Shown here one piece after another: positions 44,238-58,549 of a DNA stretch of 64,000 bases. The stretch is from Thermicanus aegyptius DSM 12793 (GTDB lineage: Bacteria > Bacillota > Bacilli > Thermicanales > Thermicanaceae), in NCBI RefSeq assembly GCF_000510645.1, contig NZ_KI783301.1:2363151-2427150 (forward strand), read 5' to 3'. A model generated the notes under the pieces. That model was given only the letters and a program-made list of their open reading frames with translations, did no database searches and had not been told where the DNA came from. The position numbers and the translations under genes were made by a program. The first letter of the stretch is position 1. Every line of letters begins with the position of its first letter.

Positions 44238-46311
44238 GTTTCAATCCCCTTGATCGGGTCTTGGTGTTTGGAACAGGATTATCCTAAGAAACACTGGATC
44301 GACGCCGCCTGCGTGTTTCAATCCCCTTGATCGGGTCTTGGTGTTTGGAACTAATGGTTCATGGATGGATTACACGGGTCCTGGAGGTTTCAATCCCCTT
44401 GACCGGGTCTTGGTGTTTGGAACTACCCTAATGCAGTTTATTGGATGAGAGATATTAACAGGTTTCAATCCCCTTGATCGGGTCTTGGTGCTTGGAACCC
44501 CTCCGGATCCCTCCCGGTTCCCCCGTATTGGGAGAGGTTTCAATCCCCTTGATCGGGTCTTGGTGTTTGGAACTCGAAGGCGGGAGGGATGATTGCGTTT
44601 GATAAGAAGTTTCAATCCCCTTGATCGGGTCTGGTGTTTGGAACTTTAATTTTTTTACCTTTTCTTCGTGGGTTAAATTGTTTCAATCCCCTTGATCGGG
44701 TCTTGGTGCTTGGAACTATAAGCTGAAACAGCAGTATCACCGTAATGCGAGAGTTTCAATCCCCTTGATCGGGTCTTGGTGCTTGGAACTATAAGCTGAA
44801 ACAGCAGTATCACCGTAATGCGAGAGTTTCAATCCCCTTGATCGGGTCTTGGTGCTTGGAACGTTCCTGCCAATATCAAGCAGGGGGTGAATATTTTGTT
44901 TCAATCCCCTTGATCGGGTCTTGGTGCTTGGAACTCACATTCCCTCGGAGATAGCCCAGGTACTGCTCCGGTTTCAATCCCCTTGATCGGGTCTTGGTGC
45001 TTGGAACGTCCGGATCTCGCGGTACGAATGATGCGCGGAAGTGGTTTCAATCCCCTTGATCGGGTCTTGGTGCTTGGAACTTCCAAACCACGGCGCCATC
45101 TGCCGGCCGGTGATGGTTTCAATCCCCTTGATCGGGTCTTGGTGCTTGGAACGGATGAAATCATCCATGTAAAAGCCATGACGCTGGAGTTTCAATCCCC
45201 TTGATCGGGTCTTGGTGCTTGGAACCGTGGTGGGGCGACGAGGTAACACCAAAGCAATTTTGTTTCAATCCCCTTGATCGGGTCTTGGTGCTTGGAACGG
45301 TCGGCGTACACAACCGCCAGCGCGGCTTCGGCAAGTTTCAATCCCCTTGATCGGGTCTTGGTGCTTGGAACGCTACCGTATCCAGGCTTCCAAAGTCGAT
45401 CTTTTTAGTTTCAATCCCCTTGATCGGGTCTTGGTGCTTGGAACGGAATAAAAGGGGTAGACAGCGGGAAGGATTGGTACGTTTCAATCCCCTTGATCGG
45501 GTCTTGGTGCTTGGAACTACTTCACTGTTTATTGTGCCTCCTTCATGTTATAGTTTCAATCCCCTTGATCGGGTCTTGGTGCTTGGAACGTTCTGCGCCT
45601 GAAGTGCGTCGTTCATGATATCCTGTTTCAATCCCCTTGATCGGGTCTTGGTGCTTGGAACTGTTTGTAGCCGCTCAGAATGAGCCGCCTCATTGGGTTT
45701 CAATCCCCTTGATCGGGTCTTGGTGCTTGGAACCAGCCCCGCGGCAGCAGCATTGTAAAATTCAGTGGTTTCAATCCCCTTGATCGGGTCTTGGTGCTTG
45801 GAACCGTGATTTTTGGGATTGCTGAAGGTTTTATAGCGTTGTTTCAATCCCCTTGATCGGGTCTTGGTGCTTGGAACTTCGTCATACAGTTCTCTGTTTC
45901 GACGACTTAAACCAGTTTCAATCCCCTTGATCGGGTCTTGGTGCTTGGAACCAAATGTGTAGGATCACTTTACCGTTGTTTTCGACTGTTTCAATCCCCT
46001 TGATCGGGTCTTGGTGCTTGGAACGTGTTGAAATCACCTTCGATAATTGGTAAAATTAGTTTCAATCCCCTTGATCGGGTCTTGGTGCTTGGAACGCGAC
46101 TGACTCCCGGCGAATACCTAGAGATGGTTGAGTTTCAATCCCCTTGATCGGGTCTTGGTGCTTGGAACTAATACAACTGAGGTGATAAACATGTTTCTTC
46201 CATGTTTCAATCCCCTTGATCGGGTCTTGGTGCTTGGAACGGAATATGGTTCCAGCAGATCAAGCCGGGGAAGGGTTTCAATCCCCTTGATCGGGTCTTG
46301 GTGCTTGGAAC
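44238..46311 (-). CRISPR. CRISPR array 1: 29 repeats of 37 bp, 28 spacers
   Basis: Direct repeats at 72-77 bp intervals, spacers 34-40 nt. In crRNA orientation (minus strand) the repeat starts GTTCCAAGCACC, has ACCAAGACCCGATCAAGG in the middle and ends GGGGATTGAAAC, giving the 8-nt handle ATTGAAAC typical of type I. Repeats 7-29 appear invariant. The left end is degenerate: repeats 1, 2, 3, 5 and 6 read CCAAACACC, repeat 3 has a further change, and repeat 6 (44609-44644) lacks one base. The left end is therefore the old (trailer) end, and the leader is on the right at 46312-46525. The spacers after repeats 7 and 8 are identical. Confidence 0.98.
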
Positions 46312-46525
46312 CGCGTTTCTTTTTCACTTAAAATATGAGTATTCGTGCCGGTTCCAGAACACTCACATGTAGACACTCAGCCGTTTTTTTTCGAAGATCG
46401 ATGTTTTGCTCAAATTGGCAAGTCAGCCACGAAAACATTTTGATTATACCATCTCTTTCCTGGAACTTGTCAAGATTTCCTCTTTCAATTCGTACATCCA
46501 GGCCTTTTAGAGTAGAATCATGCTT
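46312..46525 (-). promoter_or_regulatory. Leader and promoter of CRISPR array 1
   Basis: Contains, from the first repeat outward, TCGAAGATCG (46391-46400), GTCAGCCACGAA (46422-46433) and, on the minus strand, an extended -10 TGG-TATAAT (46448-46443) with TTGACA 19 nt upstream (46473-46468). The same three blocks occur at identical spacing in the leader of array 2. Transcription should start near 46436 and run through the array. Confidence 0.85.
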
Positions 46526-47176
46526 TCACCGGTTTCCAAATATTTCTTCGATCCACACTCTCTCCCTTTCTTTCTGCTCCACCCGGCTTGGGATATCTAA
46601 ATCATTACAATAACGGCGAAGCTCACAGGTCCAACATCTCTTCACAGATCGCGGATTTGGAAATATTTCCCCTTCCGCAATTCGACGGATCATCCGAATC
46701 GCCTTTCGCACATACTCTTTTGATTTGGGGGTAATCTCAATAAGGACCGCCTTTTCCTCAGGAATCAGATAAATAAATCCCTTTTCCACATGAGTTCCCG
46801 TCATCTCTTCCAAAGCCAAGGCATACCCAACCAGCTGATACTTTATGTTATTTCTAACACCTCGTAAGGTGTCTTTTACTTCGACCGGATAAAAGCGTTG
46901 CCCTTCTTCCGCATGGGTGTCGATCAGAATATCGATTTTACCACGGAGATTGAGGCTTTCTGCGAACACCGAATATCCGTAGAAACGTTCCCCCTCCACG
47001 AGCCGATACCTTCGTAATCCTCTCCGCCTCTCCTTTTTTACATTCTCCAGATGAGTTTCACGGGCATCTTCCATTTTAAAGGTGGGTACTTTTTTGACGG
47101 GTTGAACATATGTAAAATAAATGTAACGTGGACAGAAAATAAACTGTTTTAAATCGGTCATATTTACCTCAAACAC
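46526..47176 (-). CDS. cas4: CRISPR-associated exonuclease Cas4
   Basis: A 216-residue Cas4 with the N-terminal cysteine (LKQFIFCPRYIYFTYVQPVK), RecB-nuclease motifs (LNLRGKIDILIDTH, FYPVEVKDTLRG) and three C-terminal cysteines (KRCWTCELRRYC) that complete the FeS cluster. Cas4 trims and PAM-selects prespacers with Cas1-Cas2. The GTG start at 47176 overlaps the cas2 stop (TAGTG) and has GGAGG 10 nt upstream; ATG 47161 is an alternative. Placement after cas2, at the end of the operon, differs from the usual cas4-cas1-cas2 order of I-B loci. Confidence 0.93.
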   Translation of the reverse strand: MFEVNMTDLKQFIFCPRYIYFTYVQPVKKVPTFKMEDARETHLENVKKERRRGLRRYRLVEGERFYGYSVFAESLNLRGKIDILIDTHAEEGQRFYPVEVKDTLRGVRNNIKYQLVGYALALEEMTGTHVEKGFIYLIPEEKAVLIEITPKSKEYVRKAIRMIRRIAEGEIFPNPRSVKRCWTCELRRYCNDLDIPSRVEQKERERVWIEEIFGNR

Positions 47177-47454
47177 TAAAACGTCTCCTCCAGCTCCTTA
47201 ACTTCATAGAAACTCTCCATCTTAATGGTCTTCTTCACATCATCATCACTTAAAGTAAAAATAATGACGCTCCATCGTTCTCTGTCCTTCAATAACCTTT
47301 TCAACTTTTTCTGCAGCTCTTCCAGATGATTCCTGTTTAAATCGCCGAAAAAAGCGCTATACTGTACCCTCACCAACCCGTAATCTTTACAGATGCTTGC
47401 GACTTTGGTGCGTATCCGATCTTCGCTAATATCATAAATCAAGAGTCGATTCAA
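47176..47454 (-). CDS. cas2: CRISPR-associated endoribonuclease-fold protein Cas2
   Basis: A 92-residue ferredoxin-fold protein: RLLIYDISEDRIRTKVASIC at the start (conserved YDI aspartate), GLVRVQYSAFFGDLNRNHLE and SVIIFTLSDDDV. Cas2 forms the spacer-integration complex with Cas1. The start is TTG 47454 with GGGAGG 7 nt upstream; the end overlaps cas4. It lies 98 bp downstream of cas1. Confidence 0.93.
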   Translation of the reverse strand: MNRLLIYDISEDRIRTKVASICKDYGLVRVQYSAFFGDLNRNHLEELQKKLKRLLKDRERWSVIIFTLSDDDVKKTIKMESFYEVKELEETF

Positions 47455-47552
47455 AAGATTTCCTCCCCTTCAAAACATTTAGCCTCATAAACCTACCTAA
47501 GTCATGCTTTCACAGGGTTATTTTTTTCTCCTCTTCACTCAAACATACGATA

Positions 47553-48575
47553 TTACCACTTGGCGATAAACGCTTTATACGTTTTTCCCTCACGAAAATA
47601 GGAAGCAAGGCTGCGGGCTTGCAATTGAATGATTGTTTTAAGCAGATAATCCTTTCCCTTATATTTCTCCCTCGCATCGAATCTCTTAAATAGCTTTTCT
47701 TTAAAATGTTTTCGGGTTTCCATCACAAGTCCCTTTCCATCCCCCCACTCTTCCACTTCAGGTTTAAATCCCTTGGATAGCAAACTTATGACAACCCGGT
47801 CCACGATAGGTGCGCGAAATTCTTCGACAAGATCAAACCGCAGGGAGGGTTTCCCGGATCGATCTGCATGAATAAACCCTGCATAAGGCTCCAGCCCTGC
47901 CCGTACAATGGCACCAAGAACTTTTGCTCCCAATACTCCATATCCATAGTTTAGCATCATATTGACCGGGTCCTGAGCATCCCATTTCTCCCTGCCCTTA
48001 AAAGAAGGAATTTTATCCTGAATCAGCCGTTCTACCCCCCGCCAATAGTGGTGGGCCGCATGAGCCTCCAGGCTTAAAATGGTTTGCCTTACCTCCTCCA
48101 ACTTTCTCTCTTCGATGCGCTTCAATTCTTTTAAATACCTCTCCATTCCTGCGATTTCAGACTCGATTTCTTCCCGTTCCATTCCTCCCCTGCTGCGAAG
48201 GAAATACTTGAGGTTGTTAATCTGGTTTTGCACCTTTCCGACGGCAAACTGCTTCGCGATATAAACGCCCCGCCCATCTGAGAGACTGGCAAACTGCTCT
48301 CTCCTCGTCTTTACGGTTCCATGGAGATAAGGGGAGTACAGCATTGCATAAGGTTCTTCCCGGTAGTCGGTGAAGTAGATTTGTATTCCATTTTCCAGCA
48401 ACAACTGCAATACATCGGAGGAGATCGTCACCCCCTTTGTCATGACAATCACATCTTCCATATCCAGAATGGAATACTCTCCCAGCACTTCACCCCTTTT
48501 CTTTAATACAATCCGTTCACTCGTCTTTCCGATGGAGACGCCAAACTGGTCAACTACCAATTCCTGGAGCAACAA
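47553..48575 (-). CDS. cas1: CRISPR-associated integrase Cas1
   Basis: A 340-residue Cas1 (Cas1b type, usual length 320-340). Metal ligands: E170 in SLEAHAAHHYWRGV, H236 in GFIHADRSGKPSLRFDLVEE and the acidic group at D248/E251. The C-terminal helical domain includes FRAPIVDRVV. It integrates new spacers at the leader end of the arrays. The start is TTG 48575, with AGGAGG 9 nt upstream. It follows cas3 by 61 bp. Confidence 0.95.
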   Translation of the reverse strand: MLLQELVVDQFGVSIGKTSERIVLKKRGEVLGEYSILDMEDVIVMTKGVTISSDVLQLLLENGIQIYFTDYREEPYAMLYSPYLHGTVKTRREQFASLSDGRGVYIAKQFAVGKVQNQINNLKYFLRSRGGMEREEIESEIAGMERYLKELKRIEERKLEEVRQTILSLEAHAAHHYWRGVERLIQDKIPSFKGREKWDAQDPVNMMLNYGYGVLGAKVLGAIVRAGLEPYAGFIHADRSGKPSLRFDLVEEFRAPIVDRVVISLLSKGFKPEVEEWGDGKGLVMETRKHFKEKLFKRFDAREKYKGKDYLLKTIIQLQARSLASYFREGKTYKAFIAKW

Positions 48576-48636
48576 AGAGATTCCCCTCCTATAAACCTTC
48601 CTTCATAACCTCCATCCTTCCCAAAAAGAAGGTGAA

Positions 48637-50994
48637 TTAGTCTCCTTCGTCTTCATTCTTCACATCCAGACCCAATCCATTCACATAATAAACATTGACA
48701 ACATGAACATCCTCCAGCCCAACCGGTTTCTCCTCGGACTTATATTTATTATAAAAATATCTCGAAACAGGAACGAGCAATTGGTCCGCTTCCAGGTAAG
48801 AGCGGTTGGCAAGCGTGATATACTCCTCCATAAGATTGACGGCCAGGACAGGGATGCTGTCGAATTGTTCAAAGAACTCATCAGAAAACTCTTTATCGGC
48901 GGAATACGGGGCGAGCGAATCCAGGATTGCCCGCTTAAACCTTTCCGCCTCAAAACGATACCGTGTCAGCCAATCGTCACGCAAATCTCCGGAATAGATC
49001 CAATCAAGCCACTCATTTACCCTGCCTTCATCCAGAATGAAGCTTTCGCCGTTTTTTCGAAGAATTTCTAAGGATCGAAGGACCTCTTCCTCCCTGTATA
49101 TCCCTTGAAAACGGGTAGGTGAGGTACAGATATAAAAATCACAAATCTTTTCGGGTGGAAATGGTTTCCGATTCACTCTTCCCAACCGTTGGAGCATCGC
49201 TTCTAAGGGAGCCGGATCGCTAAACCCGACCTCAAAGCTAACATCCAGGCTAACTTCAACCGCTTGGGTCGCTACCAAAACGGTAGGTATCTTTTGGGAG
49301 GAAGGCTTGTTCATTCGTTCCAGGATTTCTTTCTCCACCTGTAAACGATCCCTTCCATGCAATTTCCCATGAAGGAGCAGCAAAGTAATTTTTATTTTGC
49401 CCGCTTTTAATCGCCTGTACATCTTCATCGCCCTAGATATTGTGTTGCAGACGATCAGCACTCTCTCTCCTTTTTCTATACGGCTTTCGATGATCCGGAT
49501 CGACTCATCGTCGAGCAGATCGCGGTGAATGAAATGAATATGATGCCTCCGCACTTTCTGATAAAACTCGGATGCCGGTTTAATCAATGCCTGAAAGCGA
49601 AGCTCTTCTTGCAAAACCTGCTGAAGAAGTTGTGGAAAAGTAGCTGTCATGAAGAGGAACTCAACCCCCCATTCCCTCTGCAAATACCCAAAAGCTTTTA
49701 TCAACATGGCGGTCCGAACCACGTCATAAACATGAATCTCATCGACCACGATGCGATTATTGGATAGCCGGACGATTTCCGCTTCATACCCTTTGGTCCG
49801 AAAAAATACTTTCAGGATCTGATAAGGTGAAGAAACGCGAATGGGGAAGAGATGTAGGTTTACAACGTTCCGTATTTTCCTCGCTTCTTTTTCCGCGCTC
49901 TCAGTCCCGATCTCCATTTCCATCAGCCGATAATAATAAAATTGCAAATCCCTCCCATGCTTTAGAGAGACAGCCCCAGGGAAGATGGAATGAAGGCGCA
50001 AATACATGGCATTCATGCTGGCCTGATAGGGGAGAAGATAGATGAAATGTGAAAAGGATGAAGCAAAAGCCCAAAGTAAGGCCGCTTCTGTTTTCCCGCT
50101 TCCTGTGGGGGCGATGAGAAGAGCGGATCCCTTTACCTTCATCACTTGCCGTTGATGGGGATAGAGGTGATCCTCATCCAGATGAAACCGTTCCATGATC
50201 TCTCGTTGGGAAGAGACCTTTAGGGGTTGTATCTCAATCCTTCCTGCCGAAGCACGATGATCACTTGCCAGTAGGGCCCCTCGTAGGAGTATCCCGATCT
50301 TGGCTTCCGCTTTATCCAGTTTCCGCATTCCAAACTTTTGATGGATCTCACGGTCAGTTTGGTGAATTGCGGTCATAATGACATGGACTGCACGGGGGAC
50401 GAAGTCTTGGAATCTGGGTGCGCGATTCCTCTTATCCCTCCATATCTCTCCCCAAAGGATCTCACCAAATCCCAATTCACGTTTCCAGACCGGCACCACC
50501 TCACGGATGAAATCCCATAGATCAGGAAAGAGATGACCGGGAAGTTCCCTCACCTGCTCCTCTATATGTTTCTCACTTACGGAAGAATAGGGAGGATAAC
50601 GTTCGATCAGTTTTTCCCATTCTTTGTGATGGGTAAGAACTGCAGTAATCACATGTTTCCGCAAGATCTCTTCCGAAGGAGGGATGACCCAGTCAAGGAA
50701 AGAGAGGGAGAGGACTTCATGTCTCTCTCCCCAAGGTTCGTCAGTGGTTAACTGCCTCTGGAACCCATTAGCCATCTTGCCAAAATCATGGAGTAGTGCC
50801 GCCCAAAAAAGCTCTTCTTTAAATTCCCAGACATGCGGATGGCGATCAAGCAAATATTTTAACGCTAGGATCACGTTAAATGTATGATCCAGAAGAGATT
50901 CGGATCCTTCCGACCTTCTTTCCGACTTGGCAAGAATGGATTCCAGGTGAAGTACGGAGGGATGCGTGCGCCAATTATTGAGGGAAAAACTCAT
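48637..50994 (-). CDS. cas3: CRISPR-associated helicase/nuclease Cas3
   Basis: This 785-residue Cas3 has an N-terminal HD nuclease (H37 in SLLDHTFN, H69-D70 in ALLHDFGKMANGF) followed by an SF2 helicase: Walker A ALLIAPTGSGKTEAALL (about 297), DEIH box RIVVDEIHVYD, motif III LFMTATFPQ and motif VI MLQRLGRVNRKP. It is recruited by Cascade to degrade target DNA. Its ATG overlaps the end of cas5 by 20 bp, with GGGGGG upstream inside cas5. All catalytic motifs appear intact. Confidence 0.96.
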   Translation of the reverse strand: MSFSLNNWRTHPSVLHLESILAKSERRSEGSESLLDHTFNVILALKYLLDRHPHVWEFKEELFWAALLHDFGKMANGFQRQLTTDEPWGERHEVLSLSFLDWVIPPSEEILRKHVITAVLTHHKEWEKLIERYPPYSSVSEKHIEEQVRELPGHLFPDLWDFIREVVPVWKRELGFGEILWGEIWRDKRNRAPRFQDFVPRAVHVIMTAIHQTDREIHQKFGMRKLDKAEAKIGILLRGALLASDHRASAGRIEIQPLKVSSQREIMERFHLDEDHLYPHQRQVMKVKGSALLIAPTGSGKTEAALLWAFASSFSHFIYLLPYQASMNAMYLRLHSIFPGAVSLKHGRDLQFYYYRLMEMEIGTESAEKEARKIRNVVNLHLFPIRVSSPYQILKVFFRTKGYEAEIVRLSNNRIVVDEIHVYDVVRTAMLIKAFGYLQREWGVEFLFMTATFPQLLQQVLQEELRFQALIKPASEFYQKVRRHHIHFIHRDLLDDESIRIIESRIEKGERVLIVCNTISRAMKMYRRLKAGKIKITLLLLHGKLHGRDRLQVEKEILERMNKPSSQKIPTVLVATQAVEVSLDVSFEVGFSDPAPLEAMLQRLGRVNRKPFPPEKICDFYICTSPTRFQGIYREEEVLRSLEILRKNGESFILDEGRVNEWLDWIYSGDLRDDWLTRYRFEAERFKRAILDSLAPYSADKEFSDEFFEQFDSIPVLAVNLMEEYITLANRSYLEADQLLVPVSRYFYNKYKSEEKPVGLEDVHVVNVYYVNGLGLDVKNEDEGD

Positions 50995-51730
50995 GAAAGA
51001 TTACCCCCCGCCCATACCCTTTCTCTTCATCCATTTCAGGATCAAACCAAAATTTCCGATGTTGATGACCGATCTGCATCATCACATGCTTATTCGACAG
51101 ACTCCTCTCCTCATTTTGAAGGGAATAAAGCCTTTGCTGGAGGATGATAAATCGGGCAAATGTCACTTGACGTTCATTGGCAGTGTCGATAAATTGAGGC
51201 ATCATGACCGTTATGCCCATTCTCGTCAAGGGCCTCCATTCCCAGGGGAGAAGCGTATGTTCAAAATATACCTTATCCGACTCCTGCAGCTTTAGGATCT
51301 TGGCCGATAGAAGGGTAATCAGATCCTGGGAGCGGCCAAGGACGAGGGGGTAACGCGGCTCAAGGAATGGTTCCCTGAAATCCAGACGATCCAAGTAAAG
51401 GGTTAATTTCGGGTGATAAAGAAACTCCCTTTGAATCGGATTGATGTTTCCATCAAGATTCTTCGGTACCTTCTGTCCTTGGTAGGGAAAACTGCCACCG
51501 GAAGCGGAAACGGCATGGACATGTTCCAAATCTTCACTTTTGCTTTCATATTGAAACTGATAGGCAAACTTCATGGTGTGGGGATCCACCCAGTTCCCGA
51601 TGGCCGCACTAATGAGCCCATAAATGGTGGATGGTGGCGGCATGAAATAGGTAGGTTGCCTACCCCATGTGTAATGGGGGTAGCGAAAAGAAGCCGTCAT
51701 CCCTTCAAACTCAAGTTTAAGGACTTCCAT
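50975..51730 (-). CDS. cas5: Cascade subunit Cas5 (Tneap-like)
   Basis: A 251-residue RAMP protein: VLKLEFEGMTASFRYPHYTW and QPTYFMPPPSTIYGLISAAI are the Cas5 signature, with a C-terminal RAMP domain. It caps the 5' handle of the crRNA in Cascade. It sits between cas7 and cas3; the intervals to them are 11 bp and an overlap. Start ATG 51730 after AGGAGAGAAGAAG. Confidence 0.9.
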   Translation of the reverse strand: MEVLKLEFEGMTASFRYPHYTWGRQPTYFMPPPSTIYGLISAAIGNWVDPHTMKFAYQFQYESKSEDLEHVHAVSASGGSFPYQGQKVPKNLDGNINPIQREFLYHPKLTLYLDRLDFREPFLEPRYPLVLGRSQDLITLLSAKILKLQESDKVYFEHTLLPWEWRPLTRMGITVMMPQFIDTANERQVTFARFIILQQRLYSLQNEERSLSNKHVMMQIGHQHRKFWFDPEMDEEKGYGRGVIFHEFFPQ

Positions 51731-51741
51731 CTTCTTCTCTC

Positions 51742-52821
51742 CTAATCAAGCCATTTGTAATGACTCTCATCGTTAAACGATGCGGCAAGTTGCAAAACCA
51801 CTTCCCGGGGATGGCCGATTACATAATCTTCGAGGATATGGTTCTCCCGCAATTCATTCAGCAGGGAGACGACCTCTTCCCTTTGTCCATCCATATATCC
51901 ACGCGGCCAACCCACATACAACGGAGAGAGGATCTGATCATGATAAACCCGTAATACTTCTCGCAGGGCTTCCGTATGGATAATGGGGTCTCCATCGCGA
52001 TTCGCTTGTACCACATAGTTAAAAGGATGATTTCCTCCTTTGGTCACGGCAAAGAGGACAAAGCTGGGGGTTACATCGGTATAATGAAGGGATTGTTTCG
52101 CCCCGCCTTCCAAAGCCGCAATTCCTTGTAAAAGAGAAGCGATCCGCGCTCCTCTTTGGCGATCGGAAAGGCGGTATGCCTCCATGGAATCTACCGTCAC
52201 CTTTTCAAGCCCGCTTTCCTGCGCCTCTTTGATGCGGACTTCATCCAAATTCTTAAAGCCCGTCTTTGAGACCGTCCAAAACGTCCCGGCGGATCGAAGG
52301 TCGAGGGATAATAGTCCTTTGAGGGTAGACCGGTAAAATTGATGTTCATGGGGAACAGGATCGCCTTCGTGACGGGCCATCACGCCGAAATCGTCCACCA
52401 CGCGGGTCGGAGCTATAGCGACTAATGTGCTGACCCGAAAGGGAGAGACGCGGGTTAAGGTCGCGGTCGTTGGGGTTTCCTCCCTTTCTTCTTCCTTTTT
52501 CGCACCTTTTTTCTTCGATTCTGCGCGCATATATCCGAAGAGATCATCATCCCAATAGCGAATCGGATTGGAGTCCGTGTAAGCGATCTTCGCTTCACGG
52601 AAAATGGGGGCGTTGTGCCATTCAATCTCTCCGGAGGTTTCCAGGGTGGTGCGGAGCCAGTAACGGAATGCCTGGGCGGAAACATAGGGATAACTTTTGC
52701 TGCCAACGAAGATTTGCTTTACGCCCACCTTGTTGTCTGTCCTTTCCCCCGTTAGCGTTCCGAGATTATTTAACGCGGATGCCGATGCATCGATTAACAA
52801 TAAACCTGTTAAATGGGACAT
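51742..52821 (-). CDS. cas7: Cascade backbone protein Cas7 (Cst2/DevR-like)
   Basis: A 359-residue Cas7: LTGLLLIDASASALNNLGTL, YPYVSAQAFRYWLRTTLE, TLTRVSPFRVSTLVAI and VVDDFGVMARHEGD match the Cst2/DevR branch of type I-B. It polymerises along the crRNA spacer. A charged loop (AESKKKGAKKEEEREET) at about 103-119 is probably exposed. ATG 52821 abuts the cas8b stop; AAGGAGG lies within the cas8b end. Confidence 0.92.
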   Translation of the reverse strand: MSHLTGLLLIDASASALNNLGTLTGERTDNKVGVKQIFVGSKSYPYVSAQAFRYWLRTTLETSGEIEWHNAPIFREAKIAYTDSNPIRYWDDDLFGYMRAESKKKGAKKEEEREETPTTATLTRVSPFRVSTLVAIAPTRVVDDFGVMARHEGDPVPHEHQFYRSTLKGLLSLDLRSAGTFWTVSKTGFKNLDEVRIKEAQESGLEKVTVDSMEAYRLSDRQRGARIASLLQGIAALEGGAKQSLHYTDVTPSFVLFAVTKGGNHPFNYVVQANRDGDPIIHTEALREVLRVYHDQILSPLYVGWPRGYMDGQREEVVSLLNELRENHILEDYVIGHPREVVLQLAASFNDESHYKWLD

Positions 52822-54264
52822 TTACGCTTCCTCCTTTTCCAATTGATTTTCATCCTCTTCCGGCTCACTCTCCTTGAGGATTTCCCGATGACGGGTAAAC
52901 CACTTCTTCTCATACAATTGTTCCATCATCCGTATGAGAATGAGGTCTCTTCCCACCTGCCAGTTTCCTTCATAGGGATCCTCCCATTGTTCAAAGACGT
53001 TGATAAATTGATCAAAAGTGATGGGAAGTTCCCACGATTGATCGAGATTTGCTCCATGACGGATGGCATGATTGTTGGCCTTAATAAAGAGATTTCGCAA
53101 TTCTTCATATTCCACATATTTGTTCCTATTCCGTAAATGATAAAACCTCTGAAAAAAATGGTGATCGTCCGTCTTTAACAGATATTCTACCAGCCGATCG
53201 GCCATCTGTTTTATTTCTTCGATTTTCTCCTCTCTCACCTGCACCACCTCCTTCATCAAATGTTTCCCTATTTCCCAATAATGAAGAATATCCTTTTCTT
53301 TCCCGTTTAAAAGCGACTTGTATCGCCGAATTGCCCCTTCCACGAGATGTGTGCGAATAAATGAAGCATATCCGGCCGGAAGATCGAAGAGATCTTCATA
53401 CAGGCGGTTGGGAAGATTGAAGGATTGAGTTCCTTTTTCTCCTTTCTTTCCCTTCTTCGATGGAACTCCCCAGGCATCATGTGCCATTTGCTGCCAAGTT
53501 TGATAGAAGGCAGCACTTTTCATGTCATACACAAAGGAGAGAATCTGCACCGGTAGATGATACATGGAAATATCCGCGTTTGTCCCATAATTTGTAAGAT
53601 GGTAGATAGTCACAGAACCTTCCGGCTCTTCGTATTTCAAAAAACGATCCACCTCTAGGAATTGTCGAATAAACTGGGTTTTCGGATATTTCATATCAGG
53701 AGATGCCTTGGCCTCCTTAAGCAAAGCATTCTGTTCGTTCATTAGTTTAAACCGGTGGGCGAGCTCAATCGTGACATTAAAATCATCGGCATGAACAAAG
53801 AAGGCTTGACCGGAGATTTTAAGGGAACCCAGGGGGAAGGCTTGAACCGCCAACAAACAATAAGGACATATTTCCAATCCTGTTCGACGGCTCGGGAAAA
53901 AATTGATTAACCCCTCACCGGTAAGGAGTGGAACGTGTTGGCGAAATGCGCGAAAGTGGGAAGGTTGCCCGCAAAAGGAGCAGGTTCCATTAGATCCTTC
54001 TTCATCTTTTAGAAAACCATACAGAACCTCATCTAATGCTTCCCGTTTCCGCTCTTCCTTCATCGTCGGATTGACATAAGCGGAATTAGGAAAGAGAACG
54101 GAGAGAAACGAGTGAAAGTATGGCGAGGAGTAGGTTTTCTCGAGATATTGGGCAAACTCCTTTAATTGTTCTTTCGTGACGTCGGCAGGATCATCAAGAT
54201 CGAAATGGCTTACAATCACCGCAATCCCTACATCAATCATCGGATGATTCGTTAGCATAAGCAA
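52822..54264 (-). CDS. cas8b: Cascade large subunit Cas8b (Cst1, CxxC-CxxC type)
   Basis: A 480-residue protein with the paired zinc motif NGTCSFCGQPSHFRAF and GLEICPYCLLAVQAFPLGSL that names the Cst1 family of the Tneap I-B subtype. The remainder is helical and poorly conserved, as usual for Cas8. It recognises PAM and holds the crRNA 5' end. First gene of the main cas operon. The start is TTG 54264 with GGAGG 10 nt upstream; ATG 54258 is a weaker alternative. Confidence 0.9.
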   Translation of the reverse strand: MLMLTNHPMIDVGIAVIVSHFDLDDPADVTKEQLKEFAQYLEKTYSSPYFHSFLSVLFPNSAYVNPTMKEERKREALDEVLYGFLKDEEGSNGTCSFCGQPSHFRAFRQHVPLLTGEGLINFFPSRRTGLEICPYCLLAVQAFPLGSLKISGQAFFVHADDFNVTIELAHRFKLMNEQNALLKEAKASPDMKYPKTQFIRQFLEVDRFLKYEEPEGSVTIYHLTNYGTNADISMYHLPVQILSFVYDMKSAAFYQTWQQMAHDAWGVPSKKGKKGEKGTQSFNLPNRLYEDLFDLPAGYASFIRTHLVEGAIRRYKSLLNGKEKDILHYWEIGKHLMKEVVQVREEKIEEIKQMADRLVEYLLKTDDHHFFQRFYHLRNRNKYVEYEELRNLFIKANNHAIRHGANLDQSWELPITFDQFINVFEQWEDPYEGNWQVGRDLILIRMMEQLYEKKWFTRHREILKESEPEEDENQLEKEEA

Positions 54265-54555
54265 GCTTCATGCACCTCCTTCCATCCGTAGATTTCAGCA
54301 TCGATGATGACGTACTTTTCTCGTTTTCTCGTCTATAAGATTCTCTTCTCTTTTACTTTTTCCCTCCTTTTCCCTGAAATTTTTTACCTATCGCTTTCGT
54401 TTTCCGTTTCCCTCCCATCCCTAACTACTACTTAGTATTTAGGCCTCCATGACGCTAATGCGGCACCATTAGAAAAAGGAAATGATGGATCACAATTTCC
54501 GCATTTATTGATAGGTCCCTAGGATCATGGTAGGAAGGTTTTTTATTAAGTTTCC

Positions 54556-54609
54556 TATTTATTCATAGCACATGGTTTTGACAACATATTGTCATGGAAC
54601 CTATGTTCC
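54556..54609 (-). promoter_or_regulatory. Promoter and twin palindromes upstream of the cas operon
   Basis: TTGTCA (54584-54579), 17-nt spacer, TAAATA (54561-54556) form a promoter directed at cas8b. The -35 is one arm of TGACAACATATTGTCA (54579-54594), and a second inverted repeat GGAAC-CTAT-GTTCC follows at 54596-54609. This arrangement suggests a repressor or activator site controlling cas expression; the regulator is unknown. Confidence 0.5.
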
Positions 54610-54772
54610 CTAATGTTAATTTTGCATATTTTCCTTGTGATCCTGTTTAAAACCTACTTCGTTTATTTCATATCATTCCATAAACATCATCTTTATATTT
54701 TGTATCTATTGCCCTACCCTTTCACAATTCATCAAACTCGATGCATCCTTTAGCATCTATCAAGTTTTCGTG

Positions 54773-54804
54773 AAAAAAAACGCCCCCGAAATTCGAGAGC
54801 GTTT
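54773..54804 (-). terminator. Terminator of the array 2 transcript
   Basis: AAACGC...GCGTTT with internal CGAA/TTCG pairs, then a run of eight Ts on the minus strand, about 75 nt beyond the trailer end of array 2. It separates pre-crRNA from the cas operon. Confidence 0.75.
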
Positions 54805-54879
54805 GAAAACTTTTTAAATTTATTCATAAACTTTTTCACCTTGATCCTAAATTGTGACGCTGAAGGCTGTTATCCTAAT

Positions 54880-57339
54880 TTTTTTATTCCCTTGATCGGG
54901 TCTTGGTGTCTGCAACTGAGATGGTAAACGAATATCCGGAGATAGTACCGGGTTTCAATCTCCTCAATCGGGTCTTGGTGTCTGCAACAAGGGTATTAAC
55001 TGTAAAAGGTAGCGATAGTTCTGTAGCGTTTCAATCCCCTCAATCGGGTCTTGGTATCTGCAACGTTACGGAGTTATTCACTTCGATCCGAGAGACATAC
55101 CGTTTCAATCCCCTCAATCGGGTCTTGGTGTCTGCAACTAGATGCCGTTTTGTGAAGGGATTTGAACGCTTTAAGGAGTTTCAATCCCCTCAATCGGGTC
55201 TTGGTGTCTGCAACAGAAAGGAGGATGCAAAATGCGTGTTCTTTATGAAAGTTTCAATCCCCTCAATCGGGTCTTGGTGTCTGCAACAGGATACGACACC
55301 TTCATCCGGTCTGTCGGCATTGGTTTCAATCCCCTCAATCGGGTCTTGGTGTCTGCAACGAACTGATAAGGCACATAACCAAAGGGCTCAAAGATAAGTT
55401 TCAATCCCCTCAATCGGGTCTTGGTGTCTGCAACGGAGACGGCAGAAATCATCCTGAACTGCGAACAGGGTTTCAATCCCCTCAATCGGGTCTTGGTGTC
55501 TGCAACTCAAACGCGACGACAACGATAATATCCGGCCAATCAAGTTTCAATCCCCTCAATCGGGTCTTGGTGTCTGCAACGGAGTGTGACCAAATATTAC
55601 AATTCTATCATCTATAATGTTTCAATCCCCTCAATCGGGTCTTGGTGTCTGCAACTAAGCAAGGTTCCGGAAGAGAAGCACATTGATATTCTTCGGTTTC
55701 AATCCCCTCAATCGGGTCTTGGTGTCTGCAACCCTCGGAGCTTTAGGTATCGGTTTCGGTTCGTTTAAGTTTCAATCCCCTCAATCGGGTCTTGGTGTCT
55801 GCAACTAAGCGAACCATCTGGAGATCGTTTACCGGGAGTGTTGTTTCAATCCCCTCAATCGGGTCTTGGTGTCTGCAACCGGCAAGCCGTGCATGAGCGA
55901 CAGGCGGCCATTCAGCGTTTCAATCCCCTCAATCGGGTCTTGGTGTCTGCAACTGAGCGAACGATCTTTCGTCGAAGTGGAGCTGGGTGTTTCAATCCCC
56001 TCAATCGGGTCTTGGTGTCTGCAACCGACAATGTCGTACTCCTCGCCGGCCGCCGGTTGCGTTTCAATCCCCTCAATCGGGTCTTGGTGTCTGCAACATC
56101 CAGGAGCGAACGTCACTGGTCCAGCTTTAACTTTGTTTCAATCCCCTCAATCGGGTCTTGATGTCTGCAACGTAGACCTGGGCATCGCGAACGCCGGGGA
56201 CGGAAAGAGGTTTCAATCCCCTCAATCGGGTCTTGGTGTCTGCAACCGCTTTTGAAAAGGTGCCGGTATACCGGTGGTATAAGTTTCAATCCCCTCAATC
56301 GGGTCTTGGTGTCTGCAACGTGAGATCAAGTGAACCGATAGCACGACGATACAAGGTTTCAATCCCCTCAATCGGGTCTTGGTGTCTGCAACGTGTGCGG
56401 GTATTGGGATGAGGACGAGCTATTGGAGCGTTTCAATCCCCTCAATCGGGTCTTGGTGTCTGCAACCTTTTACGCCAGGATCGGTAGCGGCGAACCAAAG
56501 CGGTTTCAATCCCCTCAATCGGGTCTTGGTGTCTGCAACGCAACGACGAAAAAAGCATTTATGGGTGATAAATGGGTTTCAATCCCCTCAATCGGGTCTT
56601 GGTGTCTGCAACACGAGATTGGCAGATTAAGGGAAAAGAGCGTAAGGAAGTTTCAATCCCCTCAATCGGGTCTTGGTGTCTGCAACGTATAGGTCGTCGC
56701 CGGAAGACGAAGACCGGCACCGTTTCAATCCCCTCAATCGGGTCTTGGTGTCTGCAACGCTACGGTTACCTGGTGGACCGCGGGGAAGTTCAGGGTTTCA
56801 ATCCCCTCAATCGGGTCTTGGTGTCTGCAACTGAAGGCTTAACGACAAACGATATAGAGCTTAAATGTTTCAATCCCCTCAATCGGGTCTTGGTGTCTGC
56901 AACAGTACCCTACTCTACACGTAGATCTTGAGTACTTTAGTTTCAATCCCCTCAATCGGGTCTTGGTGTCTGCAACGGACTAAGCAACGAAGAAAACGGC
57001 GGTCGTGGTGGGTTTCAATCCCCTCAATCGGGTCTTGGTGTCTGCAACGCAGAAGCGCCTCCGGGAGATCGAGGCCGAGATGTGTTTCAATCCCCTCAAT
57101 CGGGTCTTGGTGTCTGCAACGGGTCGTCGTGGGTCAAAGCAACAGCAGTTAATGCGGTTTCAATCCCCTCAATCGGGTCTTGGTGTCTGCAACAGCGAGT
57201 TGGGATACGCGGTCTAAGGGACCGGTGCGGTTTCAATCCCCTCAATCGGGTCTTGGTGTCTGCAACCCTCAATGTCTAGTATTAGTCTTGGGGTTGTTTT
57301 ATGTTTCAATCCCCTCAATCGGGTCTTGGTGTCTGCAAC
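54880..57339 (-). CRISPR. CRISPR array 2: 34 repeats of 37 bp, 33 spacers
   Basis: In crRNA orientation the repeat begins GTTGCAGACACC, has ACCAAGACCCGATTGAGG and ends GGGGATTGAAAC. It differs from the array 1 repeat at five positions (4, 7, 8, 23, 24). The leftmost repeat (54880-54916) is degenerate and carries the array 1 sequence CGATCAAGG at positions 23-24. Repeats 2 and 3 and repeat 18 (56135-56171) each have one change. The left end is the trailer; the leader is at 57340-57545. Spacers are 35-40 nt and I saw no duplicates. Confidence 0.98.
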
Positions 57340-57545
57340 CGAGTTTGATTTCAAGGAATTTTGTCAGCATTCATTGCGATTACTGGCGAGTGAATCACAG
57401 TCAGATCCCATTCAATTTTCGAAGATCGCCATATTGTGAAAAAAGATAGGTCAGCCACGAATTTTTCTTGATTATACCATTTCTTCATTAGGATTTACAA
57501 CAAGTTTGCCTCCCATTATTACAATTATCGCTAATCCACTCAAAG
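57340..57545 (-). promoter_or_regulatory. Leader and promoter of CRISPR array 2
   Basis: Blocks TTTTCGAAGATCG (57416-57428), GTCAGCCACGAA (57450-57461) and, on the minus strand, TGG-TATAAT (57476-57471) with TTGTAA 18 nt upstream (57500-57495). Distances to the first repeat equal those in leader 1. Confidence 0.85.
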
Positions 57546-57559
57546 GGATACCAGGGCAT

Positions 57560-58549
57560 TTATGGGATCACTTTTATCTTTCCCAACCCAAAAACGGTGG
57601 ATTTTCCGACATGAATCCACTCCCCTAATTTAAGAAACCGATAATAGGGATGCCAGGGCCCCGAATACGTTATCTTTCCCACCACCCCCCCTAACTTCAT
57701 GCGCTCCTTTTGCCGATTGGAGTATCGCTCCCAGTCAAACCAGCGGGTTTCATCGGCGATGGACACGATCCGGTCCGTCTGTTCGATAAAAGGACGGTAA
57801 TCGGGAATTTCAACATTCCCCTCTTGATGGATGAGGAGAAGGGAAACAGCCCGTCTGATGATTCCCCTCACCAGCGCCTTGAAATCAGGCCGTGTGAGAA
57901 GATGATCTTTGTCCTTCATGCGGAGGGGAGTTAAAAAATAGAGGTTCAGTTCTCCATCCGCCGGGGGCATAGAAGAAAGGGAGCCCGCTTCATAAACGGG
58001 ATACTCTTTGCACAATACTTTCTCCTCCCCATTATAAATTGGAAACAAATCTCCGGCGAGATCTTCATAAAAAACCTGGCGAAGCTCCGCTCTAAGCTTC
58101 TCCTTCCCAAGTCCCATCTCCCCAATTCGTTCCAACACCAGAATAAAAAAGGGGAGATAATCAATTCCCTTGCCGAATAATGTGAAAGATAATTGAAAAC
58201 GCTCTCCGGGAGCATAATACTCCTTCTCTTCTAAAGGAGGGAGAAGGAGAAAGGGGCGGACCGCCTCTTCATTCCCCTGCAGGTTGGGAAGATCCTTCGG
58301 CAATTTCGTCTCAAAGAGATATTGATAGATGCAATCCTCCAAATGTTCTCTCACAGGCTCTCCGGGACGCCGCGGGCAGGCGCATGTTAATTCCCGGAAG
58401 GCGTGCCCCATCGCACCGCGAAATAAAGAACCCTTATACCTGGGCATGAACAACCCCCGATTTCCCGCCTGAAACGTGGCGGTAAAGCGTGCGACTTTAA
58501 GCTGAGAGAGCATGGCCCACAATTCTTCTCCGGCGTCTAAATATTTCAT
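57560..58549 (-). CDS. cas6: CRISPR pre-crRNA endoribonuclease Cas6
   Basis: A 329-residue Cas6 of the large RAMP type. FRGAMGHAFRELTCACPRRP and CIYQYLFETKLP form an N-terminal cysteine-containing segment typical of the Cas6 group often seen with type III systems. The C-terminal LKLGEWIHVGKSTVFGLGKI is the glycine-rich RNA-binding loop. It should cut repeats 8 nt from the 3' end. Length exceeds the usual 220-250 of I-B Cas6. It has its own promoter and is separated from the other cas genes by array 2. ATG 58549 has AAGGAG 6 nt upstream. Confidence 0.88.
   Translation of the reverse strand: MKYLDAGEELWAMLSQLKVARFTATFQAGNRGLFMPRYKGSLFRGAMGHAFRELTCACPRRPGEPVREHLEDCIYQYLFETKLPKDLPNLQGNEEAVRPFLLLPPLEEKEYYAPGERFQLSFTLFGKGIDYLPFFILVLERIGEMGLGKEKLRAELRQVFYEDLAGDLFPIYNGEEKVLCKEYPVYEAGSLSSMPPADGELNLYFLTPLRMKDKDHLLTRPDFKALVRGIIRRAVSLLLIHQEGNVEIPDYRPFIEQTDRIVSIADETRWFDWERYSNRQKERMKLGGVVGKITYSGPWHPYYRFLKLGEWIHVGKSTVFGLGKIKVIP

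Follow-up and report, generated by a model that had tools for sequence, protein, structure and literature searches.

A CG-anchored dyad in CRISPR leaders of Thermicanus aegyptius and its relatives, a probable docking site for the adaptation complex

The two CRISPR leaders of a type I-B locus in Thermicanus aegyptius DSM 12793 share a 48-bp inverted-repeat element (dyad), TTTTCG-N36-CGAAAA, which recurs near-exclusively in CRISPR leaders and is co-inherited with Cas1 rather than with effector type. The locus lies in the window, a stretch of 64,000 nucleotides (contig NZ_KI783301.1, positions 2,363,151 to 2,427,150). Judged from sequence comparisons, the dyad is probably the place on the DNA where the Cas1-Cas2(-Cas4) adaptation complex docks, independently of integration host factor (IHF), and which marks the insertion point of new spacers. 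We favor this reading because of the N36/N35 arm geometry, the specificity for CRISPR leaders and the fixed distance to the repeat, because the distance class follows Cas1 while arrays of other Cas1 lineages in the same genome lack the dyad, and because a putative promoter can stand on either side of it and the exact IHF consensus is missing.

Shared blocks and dyad anatomy in the two leaders

Counted from the array ends (46311 for array 1 and 57339 for array 2), three blocks stand at identical distances in both leaders with zero indels, as originally predicted: CGAAGATCG at +81 (46392 and 57420), GTCAGCCACGAA at +111 (46422 and 57450) and ATTATACCA at +132 (46443 and 57471), the offset between the leaders being 11028 for all three. 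Ungapped identity is 13/13 over +77 to +89, 12/12 over +111 to +122 and 53/74 over +77 to +150, compared with 35/76 over +1 to +76 and 24/70 past +150. The longest common runs are 13, 13 and 12, while the maximum run in 20,000 shuffles was 11 (mean 3.5), and the 88 identities observed compare with at most 62 in the shuffles. The likeness of the two leaders is far beyond chance. Among the genome-wide matches to GTCAGCCACGAA, only the two leader sites are exact.

The two array-side blocks, regarded before as separate sites, belong together as arms of a single dyad. They form the inverted pair TTTTCG...CGAAAA, whose CG dinucleotides are separated by 36 bp, a feature absent from the original prediction. 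That prediction had picked out the semi-palindromic CGATCTTCGAA block as a candidate; its palindromic partner turns out to be the GTCAGCCACGAA block. Between the arms lies a central box, also overlooked before. The rough consensus on the transcribed strand reads TTTTCG(C/A)(A/G)(A/G)AT, a TTT run, a GCARAAA box and AT(C/T)(C/T)(T/G)CGAAAA, with 36 bp from CG to CG, and in the window lineage the dyad sits 80 bp ahead of the first repeat. The features of the two leaders are as follows (R1 is the covariance model described below).

46388..46435, minus strand: leader-1 dyad, 48 bp, exact TTTTCG..CGAAAA, 36 bp between the CGs; R1 E=5.9e-9
46388..46400, minus strand: repeat-proximal arm of leader 1 (CGAAGATCG block), 13/13 identical to leader 2; counterpart ATCYTCGAAAA in relatives
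46404..46409, minus strand: central GCAAAA box of leader 1, degenerate in leader 2 (ACAATA)
46422..46435, minus strand: repeat-distal arm of leader 1 (GTCAGCCACGAA block), TTTTCGTGGCTGAC on the transcribed strand, 12/12 shared with leader 2
46443..46473, minus strand: putative promoter of array 1, TTGACA-N19-TATAAT, its -10 (46448-46443) extended by TGG, the best-scoring site (17.4)
57416..57463, minus strand: leader-2 dyad, 48 bp, arranged as in leader 1, the distal flank reading AATTCG on the transcribed strand; R1 E=7.3e-6
57416..57428, minus strand: repeat-proximal arm of leader 2
57450..57461, minus strand: repeat-distal arm of leader 2
57471..57500, minus strand: putative promoter of array 2, TTGTAA-N18-TATAAT, its -10 likewise preceded by TGG (score 14.6)

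The dyad in related leaders and its association with Cas1

In Bacilli with related Cas1 proteins (38-57% identity), the leaders show TTTCGAGGAT-N26-ATCCTCGAAA. A Cas1-guided scan of GTDB contigs gave 80 loci, which together with those collected earlier provided 52 leaders of testable length. Scanning for inverted repeats in general gave noisy results as long as the arms were not anchored on CG. With both arms so anchored, the CG-to-CG spacing was 36 bp in 25 of the 52 leaders and 35 bp in 10 (score at least 9), any other spacing being found in 0 to 4; no CG-anchored pair at spacing 35-36 was found in trailer ends, and shuffled leaders reached score 10 at any spacing in 9 of 520 cases. At a looser threshold with the spacing limited to 35-37, a dyad was called in 45/52 leaders, among which a few low-scoring calls may be due to chance. 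The GCARAA box stands in register in 29 of these 45 (1.1 expected). Examination of related leaders had been set beforehand as the test of the original prediction. Both the blocks (as dyad arms) and their spacing are kept there, which upholds its view that the conserved distance reflects functional constraint.

An exact-pattern search of 151 genomes matched the window genome alone, because the arms diverge. A covariance model (R1) was built from 21 dyads and run on 399 Bacilli genomes; its E-values are rough (short calibration), and leaders from seven of the 399 genomes were in the training set. The matches were bimodal: all 49 at E<=2.4e-4 (47 fetched and the window's own two) adjoin CRISPR repeats or remnants of them. 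Counted by eye, about 36 of the 47 fetched matches lie 73-75 bp from the repeat, measured from the model end; there are also three at 62-63 bp, two at 71-72 bp, a few with a single or degenerate repeat and one with a leader deletion. Among 13 weaker matches that were read, one (in genome G028, 8e-4) is also a leader and the others have no repeat. The dyad is near-exclusively associated with CRISPR leaders.

A fixed distance to the first repeat is a general mark of CRISPR leader adaptation motifs, and the dyad displays it: its standoff clusters at 78-81, 127-131 and 56-58 bp in 38 of the 45 called leaders. The sequence in between is much freer. For 40 non-redundant leaders read at an 80-bp standoff (a few are truly shorter), pairwise identity was 61% in the dyad and 35% in the 80 bp between dyad and repeat, where the minor conserved spots are AA.CC at about 38-42 bp, TTT at about 21-23 bp and, immediately next to the repeat, GTCG. 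A constant distance despite free sequence fits a complex that spans from the dyad to the leader-repeat junction. Spacer length appeared to vary with the spacing of the dyad (N35 mean 36.1, N36 mean 37.1, p=0.0003), but this was discounted, as N35 is essentially one Chloroflexota clade.

The effector genes of representative loci were typed by PADLOC and NCBIfam, and the types were transferred to other loci via BLAST clusters. I-A, I-B, I-D and III-C effectors are all found alongside the 80-bp geometry; leaders of the 128-bp geometry accompany I-A and I-B, and those of the 56-bp geometry I-A and III-C. When 27 loci are placed on a Cas1 tree, the distance class needs 2 changes (the minimum for three states), and the effector type of the same loci needs 8. 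The dyad loci span eight phyla by record titles, mostly of metagenome bins, so that single assignments may be wrong. The dyad is co-inherited with Cas1 rather than with effector type, and is conserved with the adaptation module except in the genomes without Cas1 considered below.

The window genome has two other Cas1 genes, both distant from that of the window, and no dyad was found in the arrays adjoining them. One belongs to a second system (G000:C1:293162-294130 and 294709-300665; loci L119 and L120), whose Cas1 is in a 552-aa frame that also matches Cas4 (an I-G-like fusion) and whose adjoining array has at least 82 copies of ATATTAGCAGTGACGCCGAAAGGCGT; the flanks of this array carry no dyad. 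The third Cas1 (G000:C1:387332-388309 and 388873-390783; L121) has a Cas4 at 386730 and an array with the repeat GTTGCACCCAGCCAACAGGCTGGGTG..GGATTGAAAC, in the leader of which there is no N36 dyad. As a separate observation, JetC genes (Wadjet-type, TIGR02680) stand near arrays and Cas1 in two Bacilli genomes (L035:7550-11740 and L036:4405-8550), with no type I or III effector nearby.

Possible roles of the dyad

The adaptation complex (Cas1-Cas2, probably with Cas4) would dock at the dyad, and docking would position the two-fold-symmetric integrase for the cut at the leader-repeat junction; new spacers would thereby enter at the leader end only, without IHF. On this model a protein of the adaptation module would read the dyad, the DNA between dyad and repeat would be bent or looped so as to bring the two together, and the dyad would raise the efficiency or fidelity of acquisition. 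It is also possible, if doubtful, that the element is a previously undescribed, sequence-specific and IHF-independent landing site in which a symmetric Cas1-Cas2 would directly recognize both arms, whose spacing (N35-N37) comes close to the length of the inserted spacer, and which would serve I-A, I-B, I-D and III effectors across phyla.

The position of the promoter bears on two alternatives. The strong putative promoters of the window (TTGACA-N19 or TTGTAA-N18, TGGTATAAT) lie outside the dyad. In G028, which has the nearest Cas1 (57% identity), all three leaders contain the distal arm TTTCGTGGC and place a strong extended -10, TGGTAAAAT, with TTGGCA/TTGGTA 18 bp upstream, between dyad and array. 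A sigma-70-type scan was ambiguous in leaders other than those of the window and G028, and in the 40 non-redundant leaders no conserved column lies further than 3 bp upstream from the dyad. The -10, which the original prediction treated as a component of the unit at a set distance from the first repeat, seems from these leaders not to belong to it, and the putative promoter can apparently lie on either side of the dyad. This shift relative to dyad and repeat argues against counting a fixed start of transcription among the components of the unit, and also against the dyad functioning as RNA. The original prediction is therefore supported in part, its -10 dropping out while a docking site for adaptation remains the best reading of the other blocks.

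If the dyad were instead the operator of a regulator controlling transcription of the array (precursor CRISPR RNA), its spacing would simply be inherited with the leader. The distal arm in the window begins about 7-10 bp from the -10, within reach of a repressor or activator, and intact dyads are kept in some genomes without Cas1. However, the distance from the dyad (model end) to the repeat remains 71-74 bp whether the strong putative promoter is outside the dyad (window) or between dyad and array (G028), the dyad begins directly after the apparent 3' end of cas4 at loci L089 and L118, it tracks Cas1 through eight phyla, and no regulator gene among the protein clusters is common to all loci. 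We consider an operator rather unlikely.

The arms might also form an RNA hairpin in the leader transcript, governing the processing or stability of CRISPR RNA; a hairpin formed by leader and repeat has been reported from type VI systems (PMC13187072). The arms do covary (84.8% of cells paired; 20 double changes, 10.7 expected), and the window dyad would be transcribed. Covariation of this kind fits an RNA stem and a site read by a symmetric protein alike. In G028, however, the predicted start site is downstream of the dyad, the window clade keeps the same arm mismatches in both leaders (distal CGTGGC, proximal CGAAGA), and a plain stem-loop needs neither the fixed 35-37 bp spacing nor the conserved loop box. 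Fixed spacing, loop box, retained mismatches and promoter shift together favor DNA over RNA, and a hairpin is very improbable.

A third alternative is that a conserved host DNA-bending protein (HU or similar) rather than a Cas protein binds the dyad and folds the leader for Cas1-Cas2. IHF has such a role in I-E and I-F, and for I-D the involvement of a host factor has been suggested (PMC10212523). In the leaders analyzed here, the site is sequence-specific over 48 bp and common to eight phyla in step with Cas1, whereas other arrays in the same cell lack it; the exact IHF consensus (WATCAANNNNTTR), expected of the IHF-dependent I-E and I-F leaders, was found in none of the 52 leaders. The chance that a host bender is the reader appears small.

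Several observations weigh against docking of the adaptation complex. Of the 52 leaders that adjoin related Cas1 genes, seven have no dyad. Cas1, Cas2 and Cas4 travel together, so that any of them may be the reader of the dyad. Furthermore, genomes G149, G160, G127 and G038 have intact dyad leaders and no Cas1 detectable by Pfam hidden Markov models, although the assemblies may miss plasmids; in G138 several arrays are led by a dyad and Cas1 is only a stub (92-aa match), and G195 and G094 combine dyad leaders with distant Cas1s only. There are 11 dyad matches in G149 and 9 in G160, including a few second-strand matches, and the arms of both are still intact. If the loss of Cas1 is old, another factor must maintain the dyad. 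Effector or cas6 genes are kept near some arrays of the genomes with dyads but no Cas1. In G038 the distal arm has decayed (CGAGTC, CGAGGC), and elsewhere there are several arrays reduced to one repeat, which fits loss of adaptation followed by drift. Because G149 and G160 keep intact arms, the dyad may have a second role, in expression. G149, G160 and G138 (L154-L195) have several dyad-led arrays each, and several of these loci consist of an intact leader and a single repeat.

The dyad bears on how adaptation complexes that lack IHF and contain Cas4 find the leader end, a question that concerns most type I and III systems. With its fixed arm spacing and standoff, the 48-bp element lends itself to direct testing in vitro, and it is a sequence signature for finding and orienting arrays, even where effectors differ or one repeat remains.

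The type I-B locus and comparison with known systems

The window locus is a type I-B (Cst/TNEAP) CRISPR-Cas system on the minus strand. All the components of the type were found (Cas8b1/Cst1, Cas7/Cst2, Cas5, Cas3, Cas4, Cas1, Cas2 and Cas6), with cas6 below the curated cut-off, and their minus-strand order is cas6, array 2, cas8b1, cas7, cas5, cas3, cas1, cas2, cas4, array 1.

44238..46311, minus strand: CRISPR array 1, 29 repeats of 37 bp, GTTCCAAGCACCAAGACCCGATCAAGGGGATTGAAAC on the transcribed strand
46526..47176, minus strand: cas4 (TIGR00372, E=7.3e-32)
47176..47454, minus strand: cas2 (TIGR01573, E=1e-15)
47553..48575, minus strand: cas1 (TIGR00287, E=5.9e-73)
48637..50994, minus strand: cas3 (TIGR01587)
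50975..51730, minus strand: cas5 (I-B, Cas5t; TIGR01895)
51742..52821, minus strand: cas7 (Cst2/DevR, I-B; TIGR02585)
52822..54264, minus strand: cas8b1 (Cst1; TIGR01908)
54880..57339, minus strand: CRISPR array 2, 34 repeats of 37 bp, GTTGCAGACACCAAGACCCGATTGAGGGGATTGAAAC
57560..58549, minus strand: cas6, on the leader side of array 2 (TIGR01877, E=3e-5, 24.6 bits, below the curated cut-off of 58.65)

The repeats of the two arrays are related to each other, and no further array of this repeat was found in the genome. In array 1, the neighboring spacers 44717-44752 and 44790-44825 are identical (TATAAGCTGAAACAGCAGTATCACCGTAATGCGAGA), a repeat-spacer duplication. Its leader-distal repeats (44238-44650) mostly have GTGTTTGG in place of GTGCTTGG; in one of them GACCGGG replaces GATCGGG, and from one a T is missing (GGGTCTGGTG).

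Adaptation motifs of CRISPR leaders have been described before; here one such element spans four effector types and eight phyla. A survey by Buyukyoruk in 2025 reportedly contains 87 leader motifs, and surveys of leader motifs are likewise said to have been made by Alkhnbashi in 2016 and Santiago-Frangos in 2021. The leaders of I-E and I-F systems have an IHF site and an integrase anchoring motif. In I-F leaders, Cas2 is described as contacting inverted-repeat motifs (PMC12259127). Like those leaders, the ones studied here have phased elements, and the I-F inverted-repeat motif meets a two-fold-symmetric Cas1-2/3; unlike I-E and I-F leaders, the 52 leaders are without the exact IHF consensus, and the dyad has a 36-bp CG spacing and an 80-bp standoff, the I-F motifs being compared by description. 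Leaders are said to carry taxonomy- and subtype-specific motifs (PMC12814883), some of them phased, and leaders and repeats to coevolve with adaptation proteins (PMC8092290).

The I-D leader of Synechocystis pSYSA carries motifs I-III, which are reported to enhance spacer uptake (Kieper et al., 2019, as given in the review PMC10212523). No CG-N36-CG dyad was found in this leader (L123:16098-16309). It contains a weak inverted pair, TTTGGCA-N33-TGCCAAA, of similar span and with a score within the chance range, which is a possible distant analogue; homology with the dyad is not established. The window system differs from that of pSYSA in being I-B, and resembles it in the long leader, whose motifs stand at a great distance from the junction, and in being a system that lacks IHF and contains Cas4.

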